From assembly GCA_020720765.1 (NCBI GenBank), contig DYOB01000005.1:1-61235 (forward strand): a stretch of DNA of 61,235 nt. The letters are read 5' to 3'. Position 1 is the first letter of the stretch; every line of letters starts with the position of its first letter. The notes below the pieces were generated by a model that saw nothing but the letters and a program-made list of their open reading frames with translations, made no database searches and was not told where the DNA came from. The DNA comes from Borreliella garinii (GTDB lineage Bacteria > Spirochaetota > Spirochaetia > JABEVK01). The translations under genes were made by a program, and so were the position numbers. This document shows positions 2,924-55,531 of the stretch, in pieces.

Positions 2924-3760
2924 CTAGCTGACTTTGGGATAGAGATCCCGGCCTTTACGGCAAGCAAATCCCATTTGGATCAGTTTTCGATGGGCCCGCC
3001 TCAGGCGGCCCGTAGGGAGGATCCTCTCCTGCTCTAATTGCCCCCGTCCTCTCAGTGGAAGATCTGGTCCCCGGTAACTGGCTTCCAAAACTATTCTCAT
3101 ATCATCGTCCATCGATTCTCGCTGTAAGGGGCTCTTTGGATGTATTTCCTCAAATTGTTTGGAGAGCACAATAATCCCGGCTTCCAAGGTTAAGGCAAGA
3201 ATGCTGGCTAAGACCAGGACTAAGACTTGCGGAGTGGTGTTCAGTATTCTGGCCAAAACTGTTCGGAATGCAACACCTCCTGTCTGAGCCTGTCTAACTG
3301 GTTTCTGATCCCACACGGTTGATTTTCTAGCGTCTAAGGCGATAAGTGCTTCCGTTAAGCGGATGCGAGACGTCACCCAACCTGCTGGTAACCGGTCCCG
3401 TTCCAACACCAGAGCCGCGCGGTCGACTTCCAATGTGCGAAGAGTGTTTTCCCATTCAGTCGTTGCTTGAAAAAAAGATGCCTCCATGTCTTGACGTATC
3501 TCCAGCATATCGATCGTCAAACCCATGGTGGCTGCCAGGGAAAGTCCGGTGAAGACCATCCCGAAGATCAACGCGTAGACTTTCTTTTCAATGTGCCATC
3601 GCGACCATAGGACAACTTTAGAAAGTTCAAGACCCAAAGCCGTGAACGCCATAATCACTCCGGAGAGCCCTTCCCCAAGCGTATACCAGAACCAAATGCT
3701 GATAAGAGTAGCGGCTAGCCAAAGTACTGCTAATGCAATTTTTTGAAAGAAGTTATTCAC
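2924..3760 (-). CDS. Hypothetical multi-pass membrane protein of the element
   Basis: 278 residues, family not recognised. Hydrophobic segments lie near residues 8-27, 29-50, 62-82 and 178-200. A charged, probably coiled-coil stretch (about 88-130) sits between the third and fourth. The C-terminal 70 residues are very basic, with an 'RLRRAHRKLIQMGFACRKG' stretch that could be a small winged helix or nucleic-acid-binding tail on the cytoplasmic side. The gene starts 8 bases inside the 3' end of the integrase gene on the same strand, so integrase and membrane protein are probably co-transcribed. A role in mobilisation or exclusion would be a guess. Confidence 0.55.
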   Translation of the reverse strand: MNNFFQKIALAVLWLAATLISIWFWYTLGEGLSGVIMAFTALGLELSKVVLWSRWHIEKKVYALIFGMVFTGLSLAATMGLTIDMLEIRQDMEASFFQATTEWENTLRTLEVDRAALVLERDRLPAGWVTSRIRLTEALIALDARKSTVWDQKPVRQAQTGGVAFRTVLARILNTTPQVLVLVLASILALTLEAGIIVLSKQFEEIHPKSPLQRESMDDDMRIVLEASYRGPDLPLRGRGQLEQERILPTGRLRRAHRKLIQMGFACRKGRDLYPKVS

Positions 3761-5045
3761 TGAATACCCCCTTGACCATCTGCCCTGCAGATTCAGCTAC
3801 GGGTCTTAGTTCTTCCAGCCGGGCATTATCATATTGTACGGTCATACGCTCGGACTTGTGACCCATAACACGGCGGGTATTCGCTCCTCCGACACGTCCT
3901 AAGAGATATGTTTCATAGTAGGATCGAAAAGAGTGAAAATTAAGTCCACGGCTTTTTTGTTCTTCTTTATTAATACCGATTTTTTCTAGTGCCTTAGACA
4001 GATTCCATCGAATTGTACGTACTGTTTCCGGATCACCATTTTCCCTTGATACCACATAACCCTCAGGGCGTCTTATAGTCATAAGAAAGTTTGATATTTC
4101 CGGGGCAAGTGGAGGAGTGGGGGCGGCTCCTGTTTTGGTTTCCGAAGTCTTTCCATCAACACCTAATTGCCTGTCAAGTCTGACATAAGGAATCGGGGAA
4201 TCAAGAAAAACCCTGTCCCATGTAAGACCGAGAATTTCATTGAGCCGACCACCCGTTGATGACGACAAGAAAGCAGAAAGCCAACTGTTAAAGCTCGATA
4301 TATTCAAACCCCAAATCTTGGACATGGTTTCATACTTAAACAGCATCAAAAACTCGTCCGGTTCAAGCAGTGTTCTTTCCCGCCTGTTTATTTCTGCTAC
4401 ACGCTCCACGGAATTAAGCGGATTATTGTCAATGATGGCCAACCTAGCAGCTTCTTTGAGAATTAACCCGAGGGCTTGAAAAATTTGGTTTACACGGCGC
4501 CCGCTTAGGTTGGCACCTGTAGACCTTACACCTTCATTTTCTTTTAACTCTAGTTTCCATTTTTCTAGATCAGAAGTTGTTATGTTGTTTAATTTCCATG
4601 ATGCCCATTTAGGCATGATGTACCGCTGTAAATCAGATATATAATTTCTAAGAGTCCCGGGTCTTAGGCCCTTACCTTCTGCAACACGTCGACGATTAAA
4701 AGGACACTTAGGACCGAACCATTCACCCGCCCATTCTTTAAAGGTAGGGATATGGCGCTCTTTCACCCACTGAAGGAAATAACCTTCACCCGGGCAAGGC
4801 GGCGCCCATTCAAGCACATAGGACGGTTTAGGCCGTGAACCATGAACCCACTGAAGAGTATTACCAGGATTTTGGAGACCATTCTCCTGAACATAGGTTC
4901 TAGCGAATAAATCAGCCCTAGTCTTGGACGTCTCCCCGGTGGATAGGCGGTGCCTGACACCATCATCTGAATAAAAATAAAAATAGTAGGCACCTGTGGA
5001 TTTTCTGCGCACTAATGAATAAGGAAGTTTCATTTTTCGACGCAT
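3753..5045 (-). CDS. int: Tyrosine recombinase (phage-type integrase)
   Basis: 430 residues. The N-terminal part is an arm-binding/SAM-like region (about 1-220) with a Cys-Pro and triple-Arg patch near 114-120. The catalytic domain shows Arg267 ('TGGRLNEILGLTW'), a candidate Lys near 304, the box 'HSFR' (His371/Arg374), His396 ('MGHKS') and the nucleophile Tyr405 ('QYDNA'), so all catalytic positions are present. It catalyses site-specific integration and excision of the element. The gene starts 117 bases from the 3' end of a tRNA-Gly and points away from it, the usual layout for integration into a tRNA gene. The start ATG (5045) has a GGGGGG site. Met5 is an alternative. Confidence 0.92.
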   Translation of the reverse strand: MRRKMKLPYSLVRRKSTGAYYFYFYSDDGVRHRLSTGETSKTRADLFARTYVQENGLQNPGNTLQWVHGSRPKPSYVLEWAPPCPGEGYFLQWVKERHIPTFKEWAGEWFGPKCPFNRRRVAEGKGLRPGTLRNYISDLQRYIMPKWASWKLNNITTSDLEKWKLELKENEGVRSTGANLSGRRVNQIFQALGLILKEAARLAIIDNNPLNSVERVAEINRRERTLLEPDEFLMLFKYETMSKIWGLNISSFNSWLSAFLSSSTGGRLNEILGLTWDRVFLDSPIPYVRLDRQLGVDGKTSETKTGAAPTPPLAPEISNFLMTIRRPEGYVVSRENGDPETVRTIRWNLSKALEKIGINKEEQKSRGLNFHSFRSYYETYLLGRVGGANTRRVMGHKSERMTVQYDNARLEELRPVAESAGQMVKGVFSE

Positions 5046-5084
5046 AGCCCCCCCTTTTTATTGGCACTTATTTGATGCCACACC

Positions 5085-5112
5085 ATAATATCATGGAAAA
5101 TAAGGAACTCAA
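5085..5112 (-). promoter_or_regulatory. Candidate sigma-70 promoter for the integrase
   Basis: On the minus strand, TTGAGT (5107-5112) and TATTAT (5085-5090) are separated by 16 bases, about 40 bases before the integrase start. Confidence 0.45.
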
Positions 5113-5161
5113 AACCTTGACTTAAGGAAATAAGTCTATATGCTAAAATGATTTGTTTATT

Positions 5162-5233
5162 AGCGCCCAGTGGGAGTCGAACCCACGTCTTCAGCTTGGA
5201 AGGCTGAGGTAATAGCCGTTATACGACGGGCGC
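5162..5233 (-). tRNA. tRNA-Gly (TCC anticodon)
   Basis: 72 bases. The acceptor stem GCGCCCG pairs with TGGGCGC. The anticodon arm is CTCAGC-CTTCCAA-GCTGAA with anticodon TCC, the T arm is GTGGG-TTCGACT-CCCAC, and the discriminator base is T as is usual in bacterial tRNA-Gly. CCA is not encoded. Its 3' end faces the integrase, so it is the likely attachment site of the element. Confidence 0.93.
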
Positions 5234-47521: not shown

Positions 47522-47531
47522 GAAGGTAAAA

Positions 47532-47654
47532 ATGAGGATTACAGTGATTTTCGCCGCTATTCTTTTGGCGGTATTTGTCTCGGTGAGCGCACTTACAAGT
47601 GTCGTTGAACAACAGGTCCTAAATGTATCTTATGAGACTTCCGCCCCTTTATAA
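47532..47654 (+). CDS. 40-residue secreted or membrane peptide
   Basis: ATG at 47532 with GGAAGG just upstream. 40 residues: an N-terminal hydrophobic helix (residues 3-22) with 'MR' start and 'VSVSALTS', then 18 polar residues ending in 'SAPL'. It could be a signal peptide with a short mature part or a single-pass microprotein. It follows the M23 gene by ten bases and may be co-transcribed. No family known to me. Confidence 0.45.
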   Translation: MRITVIFAAILLAVFVSVSALTSVVEQQVLNVSYETSAPL

Positions 47655-47691
47655 ATAAAAATATTGCCACACGGATTCATGAATAATCTCC

Positions 47692-47720
47692 TGGCATAGT
47701 TAGCTTTCATGGATTATGTT
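47692..47720 (+). promoter_or_regulatory. Candidate promoter for the MoxR-NadR operon
   Basis: TGGCAT (47692-47697), 17 bases, TATGTT (47715-47720), six bases, ATG of the MoxR-like gene; no ribosome site. An ATTCATGAAT palindrome lies upstream at 47675-47684. The -35 match is weak. Confidence 0.35.
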
Positions 47721-47726
47721 TGAACC

Positions 47727-49307
47727 ATGAACTATTATCAAAAGGCCGTACACGTAAGCCAGAGTCCAACCGCCCCGGGTAAACCCATTCCCCAAAAAGC
47801 CTTCGATATAACTGATTTATTTTCGGGTCCTTTGCGAGAAAATACAACGGATGATGCTCATTCGGTCCTCGATGAAAAACTCCGCAAGGCGTATTTTTGG
47901 GTAGTCAACCGGGCCCTTATCAGTCCTTTTTATGATATAGAATTCCATTCGGCTGTACCCCAGGAAATTCGTTTTGGAACCACCAGCAAACTTACCCTTC
48001 CTACCGGTCAAAGTTATTCAAGTTTTATTCTTCTTCCACTTTTAACCTTGATGGTACGCGGGAAATGTCTCTTTGTGGGTGGTCCAGGGCGTGGTAAAAC
48101 AGCCAGTGCTGTTTTGATGGGTTTGCTTGCCGGATACCCCCTCAAAGATATCCGGCGCGGAATCCAGCACGGACAGCCCCAGATGACGGTGTCGGACCTC
48201 TTGGGGAATCCCATTCCCTCAGATCTGATGAAAAGTGAAAACTTCGAATCTATCCGCATAGCCTGGAGAAAATGGCTTGGAATGAGGGTAAAAATCATCG
48301 ATGAATACAACCGGATTCCCACTAGAACCCAGAGTGCGCTGCTTACTGTTATGGCTGACAATTACGCCGAACTTATGGATCAAGTTTACGAATGCCCTGA
48401 TTCTGCTTGGTTTCTAACGGCAAATGACGACGCCGGAGGTGGGACCTACCAGGTCATCGAGGCCCTCCGCGACCGTATTGATGTCACAGTGCATGCCCCA
48501 CACTTTAACACGAGGTTTATCGGTGATCTTTTGGAGAGGGTGGAAAGTGATTACCACCCCGAAAAGGCAGTACCATCTGAAATAATTTTCTCAGAAGAAG
48601 AATTGAACCTGATCAATGACGCTGTCCGGGCCCAGCCCTTTCCCGACGGGATTAGAAAGAGGCTCGAATACTTTGCTGCCCAGTTTGAATTTATGGAAAG
48701 TGCCGGCGAAAGGATGGAATACAAAACCAAGGACCATATCAAACTCAGCGGTGAAGACTTCGGCCCTTGGTCGGAGAAGGAATCTTCCAAGGATAAAACC
48801 AAAGATCTCGGTTACCAGACTCAAAATGGATTAAGTGTCCGTAGCCTTTTTACATGCTTTAACTATATGAAAGCGCTTTCGTATTTCAGAGGAGCCCCGG
48901 AAGTCGAGCTCGAAGATGCACGGCAAATCCTGCCATTTGTTCTCCACGATAAACTTATCCCTTATAAAGAAGCCGCAATCTTTCAACAGGATGCTTACCA
49001 GGTCTTCCGTGTCGACCGTGTTTCCTGGATCAGAAAACTCTTCGATGAAAGTTGTAAACAGTACGAAAGCGCGGGTCTCGAAACTGCTGATATATCAGGG
49101 GCGCTTTCAAAGGAATTTATTAAAGGACTTGAAGGGTTGAGCGCGGGGGACACAAAGAAGAGAATGGCCCAAGTGGAGGCCCGTTTAAACGAAATAGCTT
49201 CGGGCAAAAAGATCTACGGACCAACCTTCGATGAGATTCTCCACCTCAAGTACCTCCATCAGCGCTACACGAATTATCTTGCCTGGGTCCAAACGAAGGC
49301 CCTATGA
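47727..49307 (+). CDS. MoxR-like AAA+ ATPase
   Basis: 526 residues, longer than usual MoxR (about 330). Walker A 'GGPGRGKT' (118-125), Walker B 'IIDEYNRIP' (Asp192/Glu193), sensor-1 'FLTANDD' and 'ALRDRIDV' arginine finger are intact. A C-terminal 200-residue extension of mixed helices follows, with a 'YKTKDHIKLSGEDFGPW' segment. MoxR ATPases act with VWA proteins as remodelling chaperones or metal-insertion machines. Here the VWA partner is two genes downstream, in an operon whose members overlap by four to eight bases. Confidence 0.85.
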   Translation: MNYYQKAVHVSQSPTAPGKPIPQKAFDITDLFSGPLRENTTDDAHSVLDEKLRKAYFWVVNRALISPFYDIEFHSAVPQEIRFGTTSKLTLPTGQSYSSFILLPLLTLMVRGKCLFVGGPGRGKTASAVLMGLLAGYPLKDIRRGIQHGQPQMTVSDLLGNPIPSDLMKSENFESIRIAWRKWLGMRVKIIDEYNRIPTRTQSALLTVMADNYAELMDQVYECPDSAWFLTANDDAGGGTYQVIEALRDRIDVTVHAPHFNTRFIGDLLERVESDYHPEKAVPSEIIFSEEELNLINDAVRAQPFPDGIRKRLEYFAAQFEFMESAGERMEYKTKDHIKLSGEDFGPWSEKESSKDKTKDLGYQTQNGLSVRSLFTCFNYMKALSYFRGAPEVELEDARQILPFVLHDKLIPYKEAAIFQQDAYQVFRVDRVSWIRKLFDESCKQYESAGLETADISGALSKEFIKGLEGLSAGDTKKRMAQVEARLNEIASGKKIYGPTFDEILHLKYLHQRYTNYLAWVQTKAL

Positions 49308-50257
49308 AACTCTCGGGTAAGGTTGAAGAATTCTTAAAAATCCACCGTGACGAAGTCAATACACTTGTCCGCTCCAGTTCCTACCCGGGTTTTGACCAAG
49401 AAACAGCTGTATCAAACGGTTTGCTCTGGATGGAAAAAATTTTTCTTTTTTCGGGAAACTTAGGTTTTCAACCTTTAGTCCTCAGTCTCCAACTCACCCA
49501 AAAGGGATTGCTACAAAACAACTCTAACTTTCTTGCACCGATTGAAAGCTGGATTCGAGCCTTTCCTCGTGCTTTTTCAACTGATTCCATGGATGTCCTT
49601 ATAGACTGGACCCATCTCTTGCTGAGACTACGGCCTTATCCTGAAGTCCTCAACCGAGTTTTATCCTGGGTCACTCAGGTCTCTGGAAAAGATTTGAATG
49701 CTGATGCAGTACGTCGGTTATTGACAGCAGCTTCTTGGCTAGCCGGGCTTTCACCCTGGCGTCAAGCGGGTATGGAAAGCCTTGATGCCCTGCCGGTTTC
49801 GGTGTCTCGTGAGCTGAAAAATCTTGCTACTGGGACTTCAAACCCAGGGATTTGGTCTTCTCTCAAGATCAACCCTTTAGGGAATCAGTCCTGGACAAGG
49901 CTTATCGGCGGTGTTCAAGGGTTTTCAGGTGAATGGGCGAGTCCCCCTAAGGTTTTGAGTTTTAATGGAAAACTCCTGGTGCAGGCAGATTCTAGGACTT
50001 GGGAAATAGTTTCAGATTATTTCGGTAGCCTTCTGGTCCCATACAACGAAGAATTCCAGCAAAACCCTTCGGATCAAAAGAACACTGTGCAGTGGCGTGT
50101 CGCCGAAGATAACCTAATCAGCCCGAAAAATCTCCGCTATCCCTTCCCCTATGGTGACCCTCCTGGACTCGAAGGCGTAGAACTCTCTTCAGGATTGGCG
50201 GCGGTTGTAAGCCTGGAATTTTTTTCGGTTGTCCTCACCTTTAGGGGTATCGCGTGA
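49304..50257 (+). CDS. Unknown protein of MoxR/VWA operon (first)
   Basis: 317 residues, family not recognised. It is soluble by composition, helical for residues 1-170, then more beta/loop-like to the end ('SFNGKLLVQADSRTWEIVSDYF'). No Cys/His cluster, P-loop or signal peptide. It overlaps the MoxR gene by ATGA and the peptidase-VWA gene by GTGA, so it is probably made in fixed ratio and is a likely third subunit or substrate adaptor. Confidence 0.6.
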   Translation: MKLSGKVEEFLKIHRDEVNTLVRSSSYPGFDQETAVSNGLLWMEKIFLFSGNLGFQPLVLSLQLTQKGLLQNNSNFLAPIESWIRAFPRAFSTDSMDVLIDWTHLLLRLRPYPEVLNRVLSWVTQVSGKDLNADAVRRLLTAASWLAGLSPWRQAGMESLDALPVSVSRELKNLATGTSNPGIWSSLKINPLGNQSWTRLIGGVQGFSGEWASPPKVLSFNGKLLVQADSRTWEIVSDYFGSLLVPYNEEFQQNPSDQKNTVQWRVAEDNLISPKNLRYPFPYGDPPGLEGVELSSGLAAVVSLEFFSVVLTFRGIA

Positions 50258-52005
50258 CCGAACCCGAAAGAGCTCTCCAGAAACTCTGGGCTGGAGATTG
50301 GACAACCGCTACGAAACTTTGGAGTCCCTATCTGAGGCTTCGTTATCCGTATTTTCTGTGGACCAAAGACCAGGAAAATGCCGAGGGTTTGACCGGAAGT
50401 TTTGCCATGATCCGGTTTATGGACACCCAGGTTGTGGTAAGCCTCCGTCAAGTTATACTCGAAGGGCTTGAGACTTTTGGTGTAATGATCTTAGCCCACG
50501 AGATAGGTCACCACATTTATGCCCCCGGAGATCTTACCCAACACGGACTTATGCTCGGTAGGATGAAGCGGATGTTACCGGGGGCCGAGACCCGGGCTGC
50601 AGAGATTGCCAACCTGTACACCGATTTGTTTATCAACAACAGGTTAAAAATCCGCCATGGTTTACCTCTTGAACAAATCTATGAAAAAATTTCCAATGAG
50701 CAGCAGACATCCCGGCTCTTTTTATGGTACTTGAGGATTTACGAGCTCCTTTGGGACTTAAAACAGAAAACCCTCGCTAAAGGAGACTTACTACCTGAAG
50801 AAGAAGGGGATGCAATTTTAGCGAGCCGCATTATCCGACGGTTTGCCGAACATCCGGTTCAAGCCGCAGGGCGTTTCGCCGCTTTGGCTTTATCCAGGCT
50901 CGAAGCGGATAAGGCTGGATCTAAAGAGAACCGCTTAAAATGGATGGATACCTTAAATTCGGCCCAAGGGTCGGAAATCCCTGAAGGGCTGATTTTTGAT
51001 GACATCGAGGGTGAAGATACCCAGCACCCTGCACTTGATACAACCCTGAATGATCTTAACTCCGAGGAGGCACCATCCTCTGAGAAGAAGGAAATTACTG
51101 GGGGCCCGGGCCAAAAACGGTCTCCCGACGCTTTTGTTCATTTGTTATACGATATGGGTTTGAAGATTCCGGTTGAAGACGCGGTGATGAAATATTACAG
51201 GGAATTGGCTGCACCACTTTTAATTCCATTTCCTAAACGTTCACGACCTCCATCGACGGAAACTTTGCCTGAAGGTCTGGATATTTGGGACGTAGGACGG
51301 CCTTTGGAAAAAATCGACTGGTTGGAATCCCTTCTCAGAGGTCCGTACGTCATCCCGGGAGTTACAACCGTCGAAAGGCTGGAAGGTGAGAGCCCGGGGG
51401 CCGAGAAGACCCATAAACCCCTGAACCTCGATATTTATGTCGACAGTTCGGGTTCTATCCCCGACCCCAGGGTCAATTTCAGTCCCTTATGCTTGGCGGG
51501 TGCGGTGATGGCTACGTCTGCCCTACGTGCGGGGGCTAAGGTCAGGGTCGTCCTTTGGAGTGATACGGGACAGGTAAAAAGCACGAAAGGTTTTACCCGG
51601 GATTTGAAGGACATCTTTCATACTCTTACAAGTTACTTCGGCTCCGGAACAGCCTTCCCGATACAAAACATGACCAACTTTTACGAGGCACCCACAGGGG
51701 CCGACCGTCTGGAAAAAGGGGAAAAAAACCATATTCTTGTTATCAGCGACGAAGGGATCAACACGATGTTGGTTTCTTCCGAAACTCCCGAGGCTGTCGA
51801 TGTTCGCCTTCGGGGCATCTTGGAAAAGGCGGGCGGCGGAGGCAGTCTCGTCCTCAATCTCTACGATCAAACGTGGATCAACGGTAATATAGGAAGACGT
51901 TTCACCAGCCAAGGATGGGTGGTTTATAGAGTACAGAGTTGGGAAGAGACGGTAATCTTTGCTAAGGATTTCAGCAAAAAAACCTGGGGAGGAAAGATTG
52001 AATAG
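50254..52005 (+). CDS. Putative zinc metallopeptidase with C-terminal VWA domain
   Basis: 583 residues. N-terminal 'HEIGHHIY' (His82-Glu83...His86, HExxH) with a downstream 'NLYTDLFINNRL' that can give the third ligand resembles the DUF2201-type metallopeptidase domain. The C-terminal VWA-like domain starts near 385, with the MIDAS DxSxS at Asp397 ('YVDSSGS'), the Thr in 'GSGTAFP' and the Asp in 'VISDEG'. The middle (about 240-330) is acidic and probably disordered. No signal peptide, so it is cytoplasmic. Pairing with the MoxR ATPase suggests ATP-driven activity on a bound target. GTG start in GTGA overlap. Confidence 0.82.
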   Translation: MTEPERALQKLWAGDWTTATKLWSPYLRLRYPYFLWTKDQENAEGLTGSFAMIRFMDTQVVVSLRQVILEGLETFGVMILAHEIGHHIYAPGDLTQHGLMLGRMKRMLPGAETRAAEIANLYTDLFINNRLKIRHGLPLEQIYEKISNEQQTSRLFLWYLRIYELLWDLKQKTLAKGDLLPEEEGDAILASRIIRRFAEHPVQAAGRFAALALSRLEADKAGSKENRLKWMDTLNSAQGSEIPEGLIFDDIEGEDTQHPALDTTLNDLNSEEAPSSEKKEITGGPGQKRSPDAFVHLLYDMGLKIPVEDAVMKYYRELAAPLLIPFPKRSRPPSTETLPEGLDIWDVGRPLEKIDWLESLLRGPYVIPGVTTVERLEGESPGAEKTHKPLNLDIYVDSSGSIPDPRVNFSPLCLAGAVMATSALRAGAKVRVVLWSDTGQVKSTKGFTRDLKDIFHTLTSYFGSGTAFPIQNMTNFYEAPTGADRLEKGEKNHILVISDEGINTMLVSSETPEAVDVRLRGILEKAGGGGSLVLNLYDQTWINGNIGRRFTSQGWVVYRVQSWEETVIFAKDFSKKTWGGKIE

Positions 52006-52549
52006 TATCCATTGGGAAGAACTCGACAACCACCTCAGAAGTATCAACACGCCCTGGTCTATCGGCGAGGCTGTTCCAATAAAGACGCTTTTCAACGAAC
52101 TCTTTCTCAGGCAATCGGGCCGGTTTCCGGATTACCAACTTTACAATTCCCTTATGGAACCGCTTGCGGAACCTGCATCAAAACTCCTCAAGTTGGTGCT
52201 GTGGATACTGACACAACCGATTTTTTATCTGAGTGGAGAATGGACAAGAGGGTTTTGGAATCTTCTAGAGAAGGTGGGAGTTCTTGCATCCTATGTTGCA
52301 CCGGGACTTTTTTTAAAAGACCCTGAGCGGCGTGAAGAGTTGGTGCGTCTAGTTATGTCGGGTATGAATGTCGGTGTTGAAGGTGAAACTCCTGAAAAAG
52401 GCCTGGAAAGAAGCGTGACTCTCGACTCAGTAGCGAGGGCCAAAATTCTCCAGGAAACCCGTGCGGCCCAGGCCCGTGCCCAAGCCATCCGTGAAGCCTT
52501 GGCCAAACAGCAGGCGGAAGAAGCTGCGAGCAAATACAACAGGGAATAG
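51998..52549 (+). CDS. Unknown protein of MoxR/VWA operon (second)
   Basis: 183 residues from the TTG at 51998, which has GGGGAGGA four bases ahead and lies inside the VWA stop region. A TTG at 51959 without a site is less likely. Helical throughout; a hydrophobic stretch near 60-75 ('LLKLVLWILTQPIFYL') is not clearly a membrane span. The C-terminal 45 residues are Ala/Arg/Glu-rich coiled coil ('AQARAQAIREALAKQQAEEA'). Family unknown. Probably a structural or adaptor partner of the MoxR-VWA pair. Confidence 0.6.
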   Translation: MNSIHWEELDNHLRSINTPWSIGEAVPIKTLFNELFLRQSGRFPDYQLYNSLMEPLAEPASKLLKLVLWILTQPIFYLSGEWTRGFWNLLEKVGVLASYVAPGLFLKDPERREELVRLVMSGMNVGVEGETPEKGLERSVTLDSVARAKILQETRAAQARAQAIREALAKQQAEEAASKYNRE

Positions 52550-52557
52550 GGGTAAAG

Positions 52558-53895
52558 ATGCAGGATTTGATTTGGCCAGAATATATTAGCAGGATTCCAG
52601 GGTGGCAGGAAAATTTCAGGGAATCCATAATACTTTTAAATAACGAAGATGCACCTGTCTGGACAGGGTTCTGCGGCGACAGGAGGACTCGGGAGGATGA
52701 GGCTTTTATCGACGCCTTCGCTAATACATTACGTTACCCTTGGAATCGTTTTTCCTCTGATGTACCCGAAGGGATTTTAAATTGGGTTCAGGAGAGGAAG
52801 GATGACACGTTATGGTTTCGTAAAAATCTTCAGTTTCAGGATTTGGATCAATGGACGTCGCTCCCAACGATGACCCGTCACGACCTTGCATTGAGACTGG
52901 AAGAAATCATACCCGAGAACGCCGACTTGAAGGGGCTTGTGATCAACCCGACTTCCGGGACTTCAGGCCAGGTGCTCCTATGTCCCAACCATCCGCGGGC
53001 AGTGGGGTGTTACGATGCTGTGCTGGAATATGCCCTTGAACTCTACGGTATTCATTGGGATTTATCCCCGGGAAAAACAGTAGCCGTCCAGGTATGTTAC
53101 CAAACGGAGACACTGACGTATTGCACCACGCATGGTCGGCATAAGGGGGCTGGTTTTGCAAAAGTCAACCTCCATCCGGCTTATTGGTCCCGGGCCCAGG
53201 CCTGGTTTGACAAGGTCCGGCCGCAGATCCTTACGGGGGACCCCTGGAGTTTTCAGCAAATGGTAAAGTTGGGAATTAAAACTAAGCCCAAAGCGCTCCT
53301 TTCTACCAGCCTCCAGGTGACCGGGGAGCTTCGGGGTTTATGGGAGCAATTCTTTCAATGTCCGGTGATCGATCTGTATTCCCTTAACGAGACCGGGCCC
53401 TTGGGAATTTCACTCCCGGGGGAACCTTCTGTTTTCCGTCAGATCTCCGAGGATGTTTTTCTGGAAACCGACCCGATAACCGGTGAACTCCTCGTCACCG
53501 GGGGAAGAAACCCCTACCTTCCGCTTTTTCGGTACCGTACAGGGGATAAAGCAAGTTTTGTCCAGGGGAATGATTCTCATCCACGGTTCCAGCTTATACA
53601 ATCGCGCCAGCTTGTAGTTTGGGAAAAGGCGGATGGGTCGCACACCCAGCCGCTGGAAGTATCCCGGATTTTACGCGACTACCCCGAGGTTCTTAAACAT
53701 AACATCGAAGTTATCAACCCGAGGCATATTGTCTTGCATGTAAAAGTTGAGGGCGAAGCGCAAACGATAATACAAGAGGTTGAAGAAAGGCTTGCTTCTT
53801 TCTGGGAAGGTAACCTGGAGGCTGGGAAATCGGGACGCCGAGGGTTCGCATACACCTCGTCTAGTACAGTCCGCGTCGATACCTTGGTCGAATGA
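52558..53895 (+). CDS. PaaK-like adenylate-forming enzyme
   Basis: 445 residues, ANL superfamily. The P-loop-like 'TSGTSG' is at 132-137 with 'NPTSGTSGQV', the A5-type motif is 'YSLNETGPLG' and the A7/A8 motif is 'FRYRTGD'. The layout (short N-terminal part, 'DPWSFQQM', C-terminal 100 residues with 'RILRDYPEVLKHNIEVIN') matches phenylacetate-CoA ligase/F390 synthetase relatives. It should activate a carboxylate as acyl-AMP; the acceptor and substrate are unknown. A catalytic Lys in the C-terminal domain is not clearly seen. Eight bases separate it from the upstream gene; it overlaps pnuC (ATGA). Confidence 0.8.
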   Translation: MQDLIWPEYISRIPGWQENFRESIILLNNEDAPVWTGFCGDRRTREDEAFIDAFANTLRYPWNRFSSDVPEGILNWVQERKDDTLWFRKNLQFQDLDQWTSLPTMTRHDLALRLEEIIPENADLKGLVINPTSGTSGQVLLCPNHPRAVGCYDAVLEYALELYGIHWDLSPGKTVAVQVCYQTETLTYCTTHGRHKGAGFAKVNLHPAYWSRAQAWFDKVRPQILTGDPWSFQQMVKLGIKTKPKALLSTSLQVTGELRGLWEQFFQCPVIDLYSLNETGPLGISLPGEPSVFRQISEDVFLETDPITGELLVTGGRNPYLPLFRYRTGDKASFVQGNDSHPRFQLIQSRQLVVWEKADGSHTQPLEVSRILRDYPEVLKHNIEVINPRHIVLHVKVEGEAQTIIQEVEERLASFWEGNLEAGKSGRRGFAYTSSSTVRVDTLVE

Positions 53896-54557
53896 ATATT
53901 TTTAGCGTAGAATTTTATCTCTTTGACCTTCTGGGATGGAAACCCAGCCTGATGGAAGTCTTAGGTGTAACCAGCGGATTTATGACCGTCTACCTCACTT
54001 CGAAGGAGCGGCTATCGAGTTGGCCCTGGGGAATGGCAAATGCACTCTTTTTTACCCTTGTGCTTTTTCAAGTTCAACTCTACTGGGACACCTTTCTCAA
54101 TGTCTTTTATTTTGTAGCGAGCGCTGTCGGTTGGTACGTTTGGCTCCACCCAGGAAAAAAAGACGCAACCCAAGAAAGCAGGGGAAGGGGGAGCCTTGCG
54201 GTGAGCGGACTTATCTTTCCTTGGCATTTTATTATTATTGGTATCATCGGAATCGGTACTGTCACGGGAGGATTCCTCGGAGCCCGTATTCATCTTTGGC
54301 TGCCCATGATCTTCAGCCAACAGGCCTCTTTACCCTACCTTGATGCTTTTGTTACTTTAACTTCACTGACAGCCTTCGGTCTCCAGTTAAGAAAAAAATG
54401 GGAGAGTTGGGTCCTTTGGATATTGGTTGATATCGTCTCCGTCATCCTTTTTTCATACAGAGGAATTTATTTGATGGCTTTCATCTACGCTGTTTTCGGT
54501 GGGGTTGCTTACTTGGGGTTAGGTCAATGGACCACGGCGAAGAAGCAAAAACAATGA
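53892..54557 (+). CDS. pnuC: Nicotinamide mononucleotide/riboside transporter PnuC
   Basis: 221 residues, about seven TM segments. The N-terminus begins outside a helix with 'FYLFDLLGWKPSLMEVLGVTSG', and 'SWPWGMANALFFTLVLFQVQLYWDTFLNVFYF' and 'WESWVLWILVDIVSVILF' contain the Trp-rich and Asp-containing substrate-binding helices of PnuC. It lets nicotinamide riboside cross the inner membrane by facilitated diffusion. Direct fusion of the reading to nadR (ATGA) supports riboside trapping by phosphorylation. Confidence 0.93.
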   Translation: MNIFSVEFYLFDLLGWKPSLMEVLGVTSGFMTVYLTSKERLSSWPWGMANALFFTLVLFQVQLYWDTFLNVFYFVASAVGWYVWLHPGKKDATQESRGRGSLAVSGLIFPWHFIIIGIIGIGTVTGGFLGARIHLWLPMIFSQQASLPYLDAFVTLTSLTAFGLQLRKKWESWVLWILVDIVSVILFSYRGIYLMAFIYAVFGGVAYLGLGQWTTAKKQKQ

Positions 54558-55531
54558 ACCATACTGCACTTATTATTGGGAAATTCATGCCCTTCCATCA
54601 GGGTCACATCGAGTTGGTCGATTGGACCTTAACATGGGCTAGGGAGGTAATCGTCCTAGTCGGAGTCTTGGCAAAAGAACCGATAGGCGGGCCGCTTCGA
54701 TGGGAGTGGGTTAGCAGGTACTACCTGAACAATCCTCGAGTCCGGGTGGAATACACGGATGAAGCGCTCCCGACGGCTCCGGTACCCGACCCGGAAGTGA
54801 GTAAAGTTTGGGGTGCCTACTTAAAAAAAAGATTCCCTGACGCAACTTGTATCAGTGCGAGCGAAGGGTACGCTCCGATGGTCGCAGGTGCCATGGGAAT
54901 CAGCTCAAAGGTTTTTGATATTCAACGTGAAAAGGTGAATATCTCCGCCACTAAAATCAGGGCAAACCCCTGGAAATATTGGGAGTATTTGCCAGAGGTC
55001 GTGCGACCGTATTATAGAAAAAAGGTCGCACTTGTGGGTGCTGAATCCACAGGGAAAACAACGCTTGCCGAAAAATTGGCACGGCATTTTTCGACCTTAT
55101 GGGTTCCGGAACTGGCTCGTGCCATTATCGATAAAGCCGGGGGATATTCCGAAAAACTTCTGGGGAACATTGTTTGGAGCCAGGAAGAGGCTGTAAGGAA
55201 TGCAGCTGACAAGTTCCGCCGTTGGCTTTTTGTGGATTCGGACTTTCTGACGACGTGTTTTTACGCAAGGAAATTCTCCGGACCATCCTTTGTACCGCCC
55301 ATCACACCGCTTCTAAAATCTACCCATGATTACGACCTCTACCTTTTTTGCGAACCCGACATCCCCTATAAGAAAGACTCTCAACGGTCGGAAACCGATA
55401 ACCGTGCAGAGGATTCGCAGACGATGTTGGAAATGTACCAAAAAACAAAAACTCCCCTCTACCATGTTAAAGGTATAGGGGAGAATCGACTGAAAAATGC
55501 GTTGGAAATCCTTGGAAGTATCACTGATTGA
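54554..55531 (+). CDS. nadR: NadR-type NMN adenylyltransferase/ribosylnicotinamide kinase
   Basis: 325 residues from the ATG at 54554, overlapping the pnuC stop. An ATG nine codons upstream is an alternative. The N-terminal nucleotidyltransferase has 'GKFMPFHQGH' (9-18) and 'ISATKIRANP' (ISxTxxR). The C-terminal kinase has the P-loop 'GAESTGKTTLAEKL' (162-175) and an 'FVDSDFLTT' Walker B-like element. The HTH repressor domain of enterobacterial NadR is missing. It converts nicotinamide riboside to NMN and NAD+. Two tight ATGA couplings link it to the acyl-adenylase and pnuC. Confidence 0.93.
   Translation: MNHTALIIGKFMPFHQGHIELVDWTLTWAREVIVLVGVLAKEPIGGPLRWEWVSRYYLNNPRVRVEYTDEALPTAPVPDPEVSKVWGAYLKKRFPDATCISASEGYAPMVAGAMGISSKVFDIQREKVNISATKIRANPWKYWEYLPEVVRPYYRKKVALVGAESTGKTTLAEKLARHFSTLWVPELARAIIDKAGGYSEKLLGNIVWSQEEAVRNAADKFRRWLFVDSDFLTTCFYARKFSGPSFVPPITPLLKSTHDYDLYLFCEPDIPYKKDSQRSETDNRAEDSQTMLEMYQKTKTPLYHVKGIGENRLKNALEILGSITD

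Follow-up and report, generated by a model that had tools for sequence, protein, structure and literature searches.

The operon and its proteins

The stretch of Borreliella garinii DNA analyzed here (contig DYOB01000005.1 of assembly GCA_020720765.1, positions 1 to 61,235, hereafter the window) carries seven consecutive genes that bring together a MoxR-family ATPase, a metallopeptidase-VWA protein, two proteins without assigned families (U317 and U183), a PaaK-like adenylate-forming enzyme, and the nicotinamide riboside salvage pair PnuC and NadR. A prior sequence-only reading had proposed a single coupled operon, and all seven open reading frames lie where it placed them, intact and on the plus strand. 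The junctions measure −4, −4, −8, +8, −4, and −4 bases in order, comprising four ATGA/GTGA overlaps, one nested TTG start, and one 8-base gap. That reading was right that the junctions fall within nine bases and that five are overlaps, although its “six of seven” should be six of six. Its family assignments for MoxR, the VWA/HExxH protein, the PaaK-like enzyme, PnuC, and NadR also hold.

47727-55531, plus strand: seven-gene operon, all seven open reading frames intact
47727..49307, plus strand: MoxR-family AAA+ ATPase, 526 amino acids (aa), from PF07726 AAA_3 and motifs
48078-48101, plus strand: MoxR Walker A, GGPGRGKT, intact
48294-48311, plus strand: MoxR Walker B, IIDEYN, intact
49304..50257, plus strand: U317, family without assignment, from its AlphaFold2 model and position after MoxR
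50254..52005, plus strand: metallopeptidase-VWA protein, 583 aa, with invariant HEIGHH and metal-ion-dependent adhesion site (MIDAS) motifs
50497-50514, plus strand: HEIGHH of the VWA protein, intact
51442-51456, plus strand: MIDAS DSSGS of the VWA protein, intact, with D499 in addition
51998..52549, plus strand: U183, TTG start, with an all-helical model and conserved C-terminal residue
52558..53895, plus strand: PaaK-like adenylate-forming enzyme, 445 aa, from a profile match to PaaK structures and motifs
53892..54557, plus strand: PnuC nicotinamide riboside transporter, from PF04973 and TIGR01528
54554..55531, plus strand: NadR, nicotinamide mononucleotide (NMN) adenylyltransferase plus ribosylnicotinamide kinase, from TIGR01526 and motifs
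47522..47726, no strand: gap of 205 bases upstream of the operon

MoxR belongs with the AAA_3 ATPases, as its PF07726 domain scores above the cut-off (31.5 bits against 27) and both Walker motifs are intact. In the VWA protein, the HE.GHH signature and residues E112, N120, and D124 downstream of it are invariant in 37 relatives, features that suggest a zincin, although no Pfam peptidase family was matched. Equally invariant are D397, S399, S401, and D499, so that a complete MIDAS is encoded in the same operon as MoxR. The Pfam VWA family is reached by only 1 of the 37 relatives, and metallopeptidase or DUF families by none of them. The U317 gene follows MoxR in nearly all loci; the window protein has no Pfam or NCBIfam match at the thresholds, and two marginal Pfam matches were seen among 52 relatives. 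Neither U183 nor the VWA protein of the window has a significant match in Pfam or NCBIfam, and by these scans Pfam covers essentially nothing of U317, U183, or the VWA protein (U183 relatives lay outside the family-set scan).

Structure prediction of the two unassigned proteins, which the sequence-only reading had suggested, gave confident AlphaFold2 models (predicted local distance difference test, pLDDT, of 90 for U317 and 92 for U183), and neither model matched a solved fold in the PDB at E<=0.001. U317 is predicted to be helical in its N-terminal half and beta in its C-terminal half. U183 is predicted to be helical throughout, with a last helix of 39 residues that ends ...ASKYNRE, and its C-terminal residue is acidic in all 46 relatives (Glu in 45, Asp in 1).

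The PaaK-like protein appears to be a PaaK-type enzyme, given its profile similarity to solved PaaK structures (9s3l, E 3.5e-25) and its intact, conserved motifs TSGTSG, YSLNE, and YRTGD. PF00501 is matched by 31 of 33 family members; for the window protein, Pfam gave nothing at E<=1. It resembles the PaaK/phenylacetate-CoA ligase and DVU_1553 families in profile and motifs, but it is divergent from them and has what seems to be an obligate partner in U183. PnuC matches PF04973 (E 2.4e-40) and TIGR01528 (88.7 bits, cut-off 42.45). NadR, the single copy in its genome, matches TIGR01526 (E 3e-50) at 171 bits, below the equivalog cut-off of 341 and with a query start one codon late. Despite this score, we call the protein NadR-like in function because both catalytic domains are intact, with GKFMPFHQGH and ISATKIR in the NMN adenylyltransferase (NMNAT) domain and the P-loop GAESTGKT in the ribosylnicotinamide kinase. 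Neither a convincing sigma-70 promoter nor an Rfam RNA was seen in the 205-base upstream gap. Riboswitch control of pnuC was also considered and dropped, as an Rfam search of the window and seven loci found no riboswitch.

A five-gene core across phyla

A MoxR alignment searched against about 85,000 genomes returned 159 relatives, of which the best 80 (55-77% identity) were kept. By their record titles, mostly those of metagenome-assembled genomes (MAGs), from which phylum and organism names were taken, the best 80 of the 159 come from Spirochaetota, Pseudomonadota, Bacteroidota, Verrucomicrobiota, Chloroflexota, Acidobacteriota, Myxococcota, Planctomycetota, Thermodesulfobacteriota, Melainabacteria/Cyanobacteriota, KSB1, and Riflebacteria. 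The core gene cassette spans more than ten phyla, and the functional linkage that had been proposed from the one sequence holds. The gene-neighborhood search across Spirochaetota and beyond, also suggested at that stage, found that 55 of 83 loci have MoxR-U317-VWA-U183-PaaK complete, with the gene order kept and all five genes on one strand (39 of 67 once Flavobacterium is set aside), and many of the loci without a complete core end at contig edges.

Closer to home, the cassette is sporadic. It occurs in 4 of 60 relatives examined; in the class as a whole 5 of 395 genomes have it, and in the genus of G420, 3 of 101. The class members are the window’s own genome, a sister species (G001), two genomes from another family (G030 and G050), and G140. 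In the sister species all seven genes are likewise present, divided between contigs C1 and C19, and the two distant Spirochaetia, G030 and G050, have all seven at 24-59% identity with the nadR/pnuC order swapped and unrelated flanks. Because the seven genes recur in these three genomes, the operon is not a product of chance. In a quick MoxR tree, the lineages of the window and of G030/G050 belong to separate, well-supported groups, and the group of G030/G050 also includes Bacteroidota, Riflebacteria, and a deltaproteobacterium; this would agree with two independent acquisitions within the class. Some labels should be read with care. L081 and L083 are near-identical cassettes in bins labeled Chloroflexota and Alphaproteobacteria, one of which is probably mis-assigned, and the L013 record titled Bordetella parapertussis clusters with Betaproteobacterial MAGs, its title probably being a loose bin label.

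The core consists of two blocks, MoxR-U317-VWA and U183-PaaK, that travel together. This is indicated because PaaK persists when unlinked, because U183 and PaaK are paired away from MoxR, and because they are duplicated together. In all 13 MoxR genomes without PaaK near MoxR, a cassette-type PaaK was found elsewhere or on another contig (383-594 bits), compared to none of 14 sampled Spirochaetia without the cassette at E<=1e-20; MoxR and PaaK thus co-occur genome-wide even when unlinked. The U183 and PaaK genes are coupled, both L015 and L042 contain a duplication of the two together, and pairs distant from MoxR still stand with NadR or PnuC in L108, L113, and L115. The PaaK-like gene is hence no passenger, a possibility left open by the sequence-only reading. 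Co-divergence, measured as Spearman correlation of pairwise distances and including shared ancestry without correction, reached 0.62-0.76 among MoxR, U317, VWA, and U183 and 0.45-0.50 between the core and PaaK.

Elsewhere in the window, a tRNA (5162-5233) lies beside a tyrosine-recombinase-like open reading frame (3753-5045; region 3753-5233, minus strand), probably marking the edge of an integrated element.

NadR or a radical-SAM pair as third module

Of 37 non-redundant loci in which its position could be determined, a set from which near-duplicates were left out and in which flanks were long enough, 27 have NadR next to the core, whether or not PnuC accompanies it. The arrangements are varied: PaaK>PnuC>NadR, PaaK>NadR>PnuC, PaaK>NadR alone, PnuC>NadR>MoxR, divergent upstream, and convergent downstream. 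Many lineages couple NadR directly to PaaK, and NadR stays beside U183-PaaK when MoxR is elsewhere; PnuC is often absent from cassette loci. In three loci (L015, L036, and L045), only an NMNAT domain remains, downstream of PaaK and overlapping it by 4 bases. The window pair resembles known PnuC-NadR nicotinamide riboside salvage in that both genes are adjacent and intact, but it differs from salvage alone in being joined to an unrelated core and, in those three loci, reduced to the NMNAT domain after PaaK.

Seven of the ten loci without an adjacent NadR instead carry a pair of radical S-adenosylmethionine (radical-SAM) genes of about 240 and 360 aa with CxxxCxxC motifs. L026 has a different radical-SAM gene within its core; like L067 and L078, it comes from a genome that encodes NadR elsewhere. 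Across 49 cassette genomes, 37 have NadR only, 10 have the long radical-SAM gene only, 2 have neither, and none has both (Fisher test, 8e-9, uncorrected for relatedness, four lineages). This exclusivity is strict for the long radical-SAM partner only, because in the L015 genome the small radical-SAM gene coexists with the NMNAT-only protein. At the level of gene organization, the loci show a core with an attached third module, being either NadR or an NMNAT domain, with or without PnuC, or the radical-SAM pair. A third family of radical-SAM proteins, named rSAM_M (about 340-370 aa), lies inside or beside the cassette in L024, L026, L034, L036, L042, and L064 and, unlike the radical-SAM pair, is found together with NadR.

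The window’s genome has a separate NadD, and therefore the operon NadR is not its sole route to NAD. NadD also scores over cut-off in 20 of 24 tested cassette genomes, and for these reasons we rejected plain NAD supply as the whole explanation of the cassette. One genome without NadR (G427, L057) has seven NadD-family matches, five of them over cut-off.

Upstream of MoxR, Betaproteobacteria and L078 have a TCAD9 (PF19974) gene, the loci being L011, L012, L013, L016, L035, L043, and L078. Its protein has isochorismatase-like, kinase-like, and dual-specificity phosphatase domains, with NUDIX in place of the last in L078, and is likely a regulator of the Betaproteobacterial version of the cassette. 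The position that we take to hold the family’s usual catalytic Cys is occupied by another residue, so we discarded TCAD9 as a nicotinamidase link; the isochorismatase-like domain is likely inactive and carried on a kinase/phosphatase regulator.

Proposed function and alternatives

Judging from its conservation, the cassette is almost certainly a functional unit of which the NAD link is a part. Our favored interpretation, which we consider plausible while placing it somewhat short of probable, is a maturation or biosynthesis system built around the U183-PaaK adenylating pair, with a MoxR/VWA/U317 machine in its service and either NMN/NAD or radical-SAM chemistry as partner. Catalytic motifs are intact in all the operon’s enzymes, which we count in its favor. 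MoxR would form a ring powered by ATP and, by way of U317 and the metallopeptidase-VWA protein, would remodel or process a client in the way NorQ-NorD acts on nitric oxide reductase. The PaaK-like enzyme, obligately partnered by U183, would activate a carboxylate to an acyl-AMP, and the C-terminal Glu tail of U183 would be a docking end or carrier. PnuC and NadR would take up nicotinamide riboside and supply NMN/NAD as a dedicated co-substrate, and radical-SAM chemistry would perform the corresponding step in other lineages. The product would be either a cofactor linked to a nucleotide or a modification of a protein; client, acid, the tail’s role, and the use of NAD are all matters of inference.

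There is precedent for such a motor. NorQ-NorD and RavA-ViaA carry out ATP-driven remodeling of a specific enzyme client (PMC13036017, PMC10585395, PMC9976466), with NorQD serving nitric oxide reductase (PMC13036017) and RavA-ViaA likewise being a MoxR-VWA pair with a specific enzyme client (PMC10585395). The cassette resembles these systems in encoding a MoxR-type ATPase beside a MIDAS-bearing VWA protein. It differs from them in the N-terminal HEIGHH region of its VWA protein, in the new families U317 and U183, in the addition of an adenylate-forming enzyme and NAD salvage, and in having no known client enzyme. A metallopeptidase N-terminal to a vWA domain and encoded beside MoxR is also found in a jumbo-phage pair with a proposed role in virion assembly (PMC7824862); unlike that pair, the window MoxR and VWA proteins match no phage record by tblastn.

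Several points weigh against our interpretation. Two cassette genomes carry neither NadR nor the long radical-SAM gene, and because NMN adenylyltransferases and radical-SAM enzymes are not chemically equivalent, a common role for the third module is conjecture. The confidently predicted helical tail of U183 would fit docking better than a flexible carrier arm. Co-divergence of the core, on the same uncorrected measure, is weak with NadR (0.20-0.49) and PnuC (0.02-0.30), a pattern that suggests joint inheritance of the core and repeated recruitment of NadR and PnuC, which may simply be supply genes. A more ambitious version is possible, if doubtful: an undescribed pathway, shared across phyla, for making or attaching a new protein modification or a new cofactor derived from a nucleotide. 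In it PaaK-U183 would activate the acid, NadR or the radical-SAM pair would provide the nucleotide part, and a motor of MoxR, the metallopeptidase-VWA protein, and the new U317 fold would load or release the product.

The cassette could instead be regulated NAD salvage with no new product, in which metabolism would be sensed or repaired by MoxR-VWA and the adenylase, with PnuC-NadR as their output, topping up NAD under stress. PnuC and NadR are the sole parts with a known pathway, fully intact, and among Spirochaetia NadR is present in 4 of 4 cassette genomes vs. 5 of 56 without the cassette. Yet ten cassette genomes have the radical-SAM pair and no NadR, PnuC is often missing, and the adenylate-forming enzyme is left unexplained, making this rather unlikely.

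We also regard as unlikely, to a somewhat greater degree, that U183 is a carrier or tag comparable to LysW or Pup, whose C-terminal Glu would be activated or loaded by the PaaK-like enzyme while the metallopeptidase-VWA protein and MoxR release or unfold the conjugate. The near-invariant Glu, conserved to the last residue as in LysW and Pup, would fit this idea, as would the coupling and co-duplication of U183 with PaaK and the presence of a peptidase motif and ring ATPase in one operon. However, the acids known for PaaK-type enzymes are small aromatic ones rather than the C-termini of proteins, and neither a PafA- nor a LysX-type ligase was seen among the seven operon proteins (Pfam, NCBIfam). 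Unlike LysW and Pup, moreover, the U183 tail is predicted as an ordered, rigid helix rather than a disordered one, and no sequence relation to either was seen.

ATP-driven maturation, one hypothesis of the sequence-only reading, remains plausible, whereas the conflict system of its other hypothesis went unsupported in PADLOC, plasmid/phage, and flank searches. An anti-phage or conflict system using acyl-AMP or NAD chemistry would suit the sporadic distribution in the class and in the genus of G420, and other MoxR-vWA systems have been proposed to act in conflict (Kaur et al. 2020, PMC7159879). In the passages of that work considered here, these ternary systems likewise combine MoxR, vWA, and further proteins, some with radical-SAM peptide-processing modules; its main text does not contain “acyl” or “PaaK”, and those passages mention no AMP ligase, PnuC, or NadR. 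Unlike the systems described there, the cassette has no effector domains, and no toxic effector gene was recognized. The third components of those systems (VMAP, iSTAND, FtsH, beta-propeller) had no Pfam match in the window proteins or in 52 U317 and 37 VWA relatives, with no dedicated VMAP/iSTAND profile run. PADLOC matched none of six of the seven operon proteins and gave weak P-loop matches only for NadR, MoxR and VWA had no plasmid or phage match, and MoxR had none in viral contigs. Among 121 flanking proteins, no family recurred more than twice, and few PADLOC or defense-type matches were seen. Going by these searches, the cassette is chromosomal, its flanks are not defense islands, and it has no mobile-element signature. 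With neither known defense families nor a defense-island or mobile context, we rejected a defense system as improbable.

Accidental placement of a housekeeping pnuC-nadR pair beside an unrelated operon has a negligible chance of being correct: the two are separate in some genomes, with NadR elsewhere, yet the linkage in 27 of 37 loci, its several arrangements, the persistence of NadR beside U183-PaaK without MoxR, and the radical-SAM pair that mostly replaces an absent NadR refute it, settling a question that the sequence-only reading had raised.

That reading knew of no described system linking these parts, and full-text searches of open-license papers likewise found no description of MoxR with PnuC/NadR, with PaaK plus radical SAM, or with adenylate-forming enzymes, although a subscription paper is possible. 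Closest in kind are the MoxR-vWA ternary systems (PMC7159879) and the jumbo-phage pair (PMC7824862), each of another composition. The cassette is a strictly organized gene set, present in more than ten phyla and undescribed in the open-license literature searched. Both the radical-SAM alternative and the conserved acidic U183 C-terminus were beyond the reach of a single sequence, and the mutual exclusivity of NadR and radical-SAM is a strong clue to the cassette’s chemistry. For MoxR-VWA machines, which seldom have a known client, the cassette offers a testable one in the adenylating enzyme, and it connects them to NAD metabolism. Its cultured hosts, including Flavobacterium species and Pontibacter ramchanderi, make direct testing feasible.

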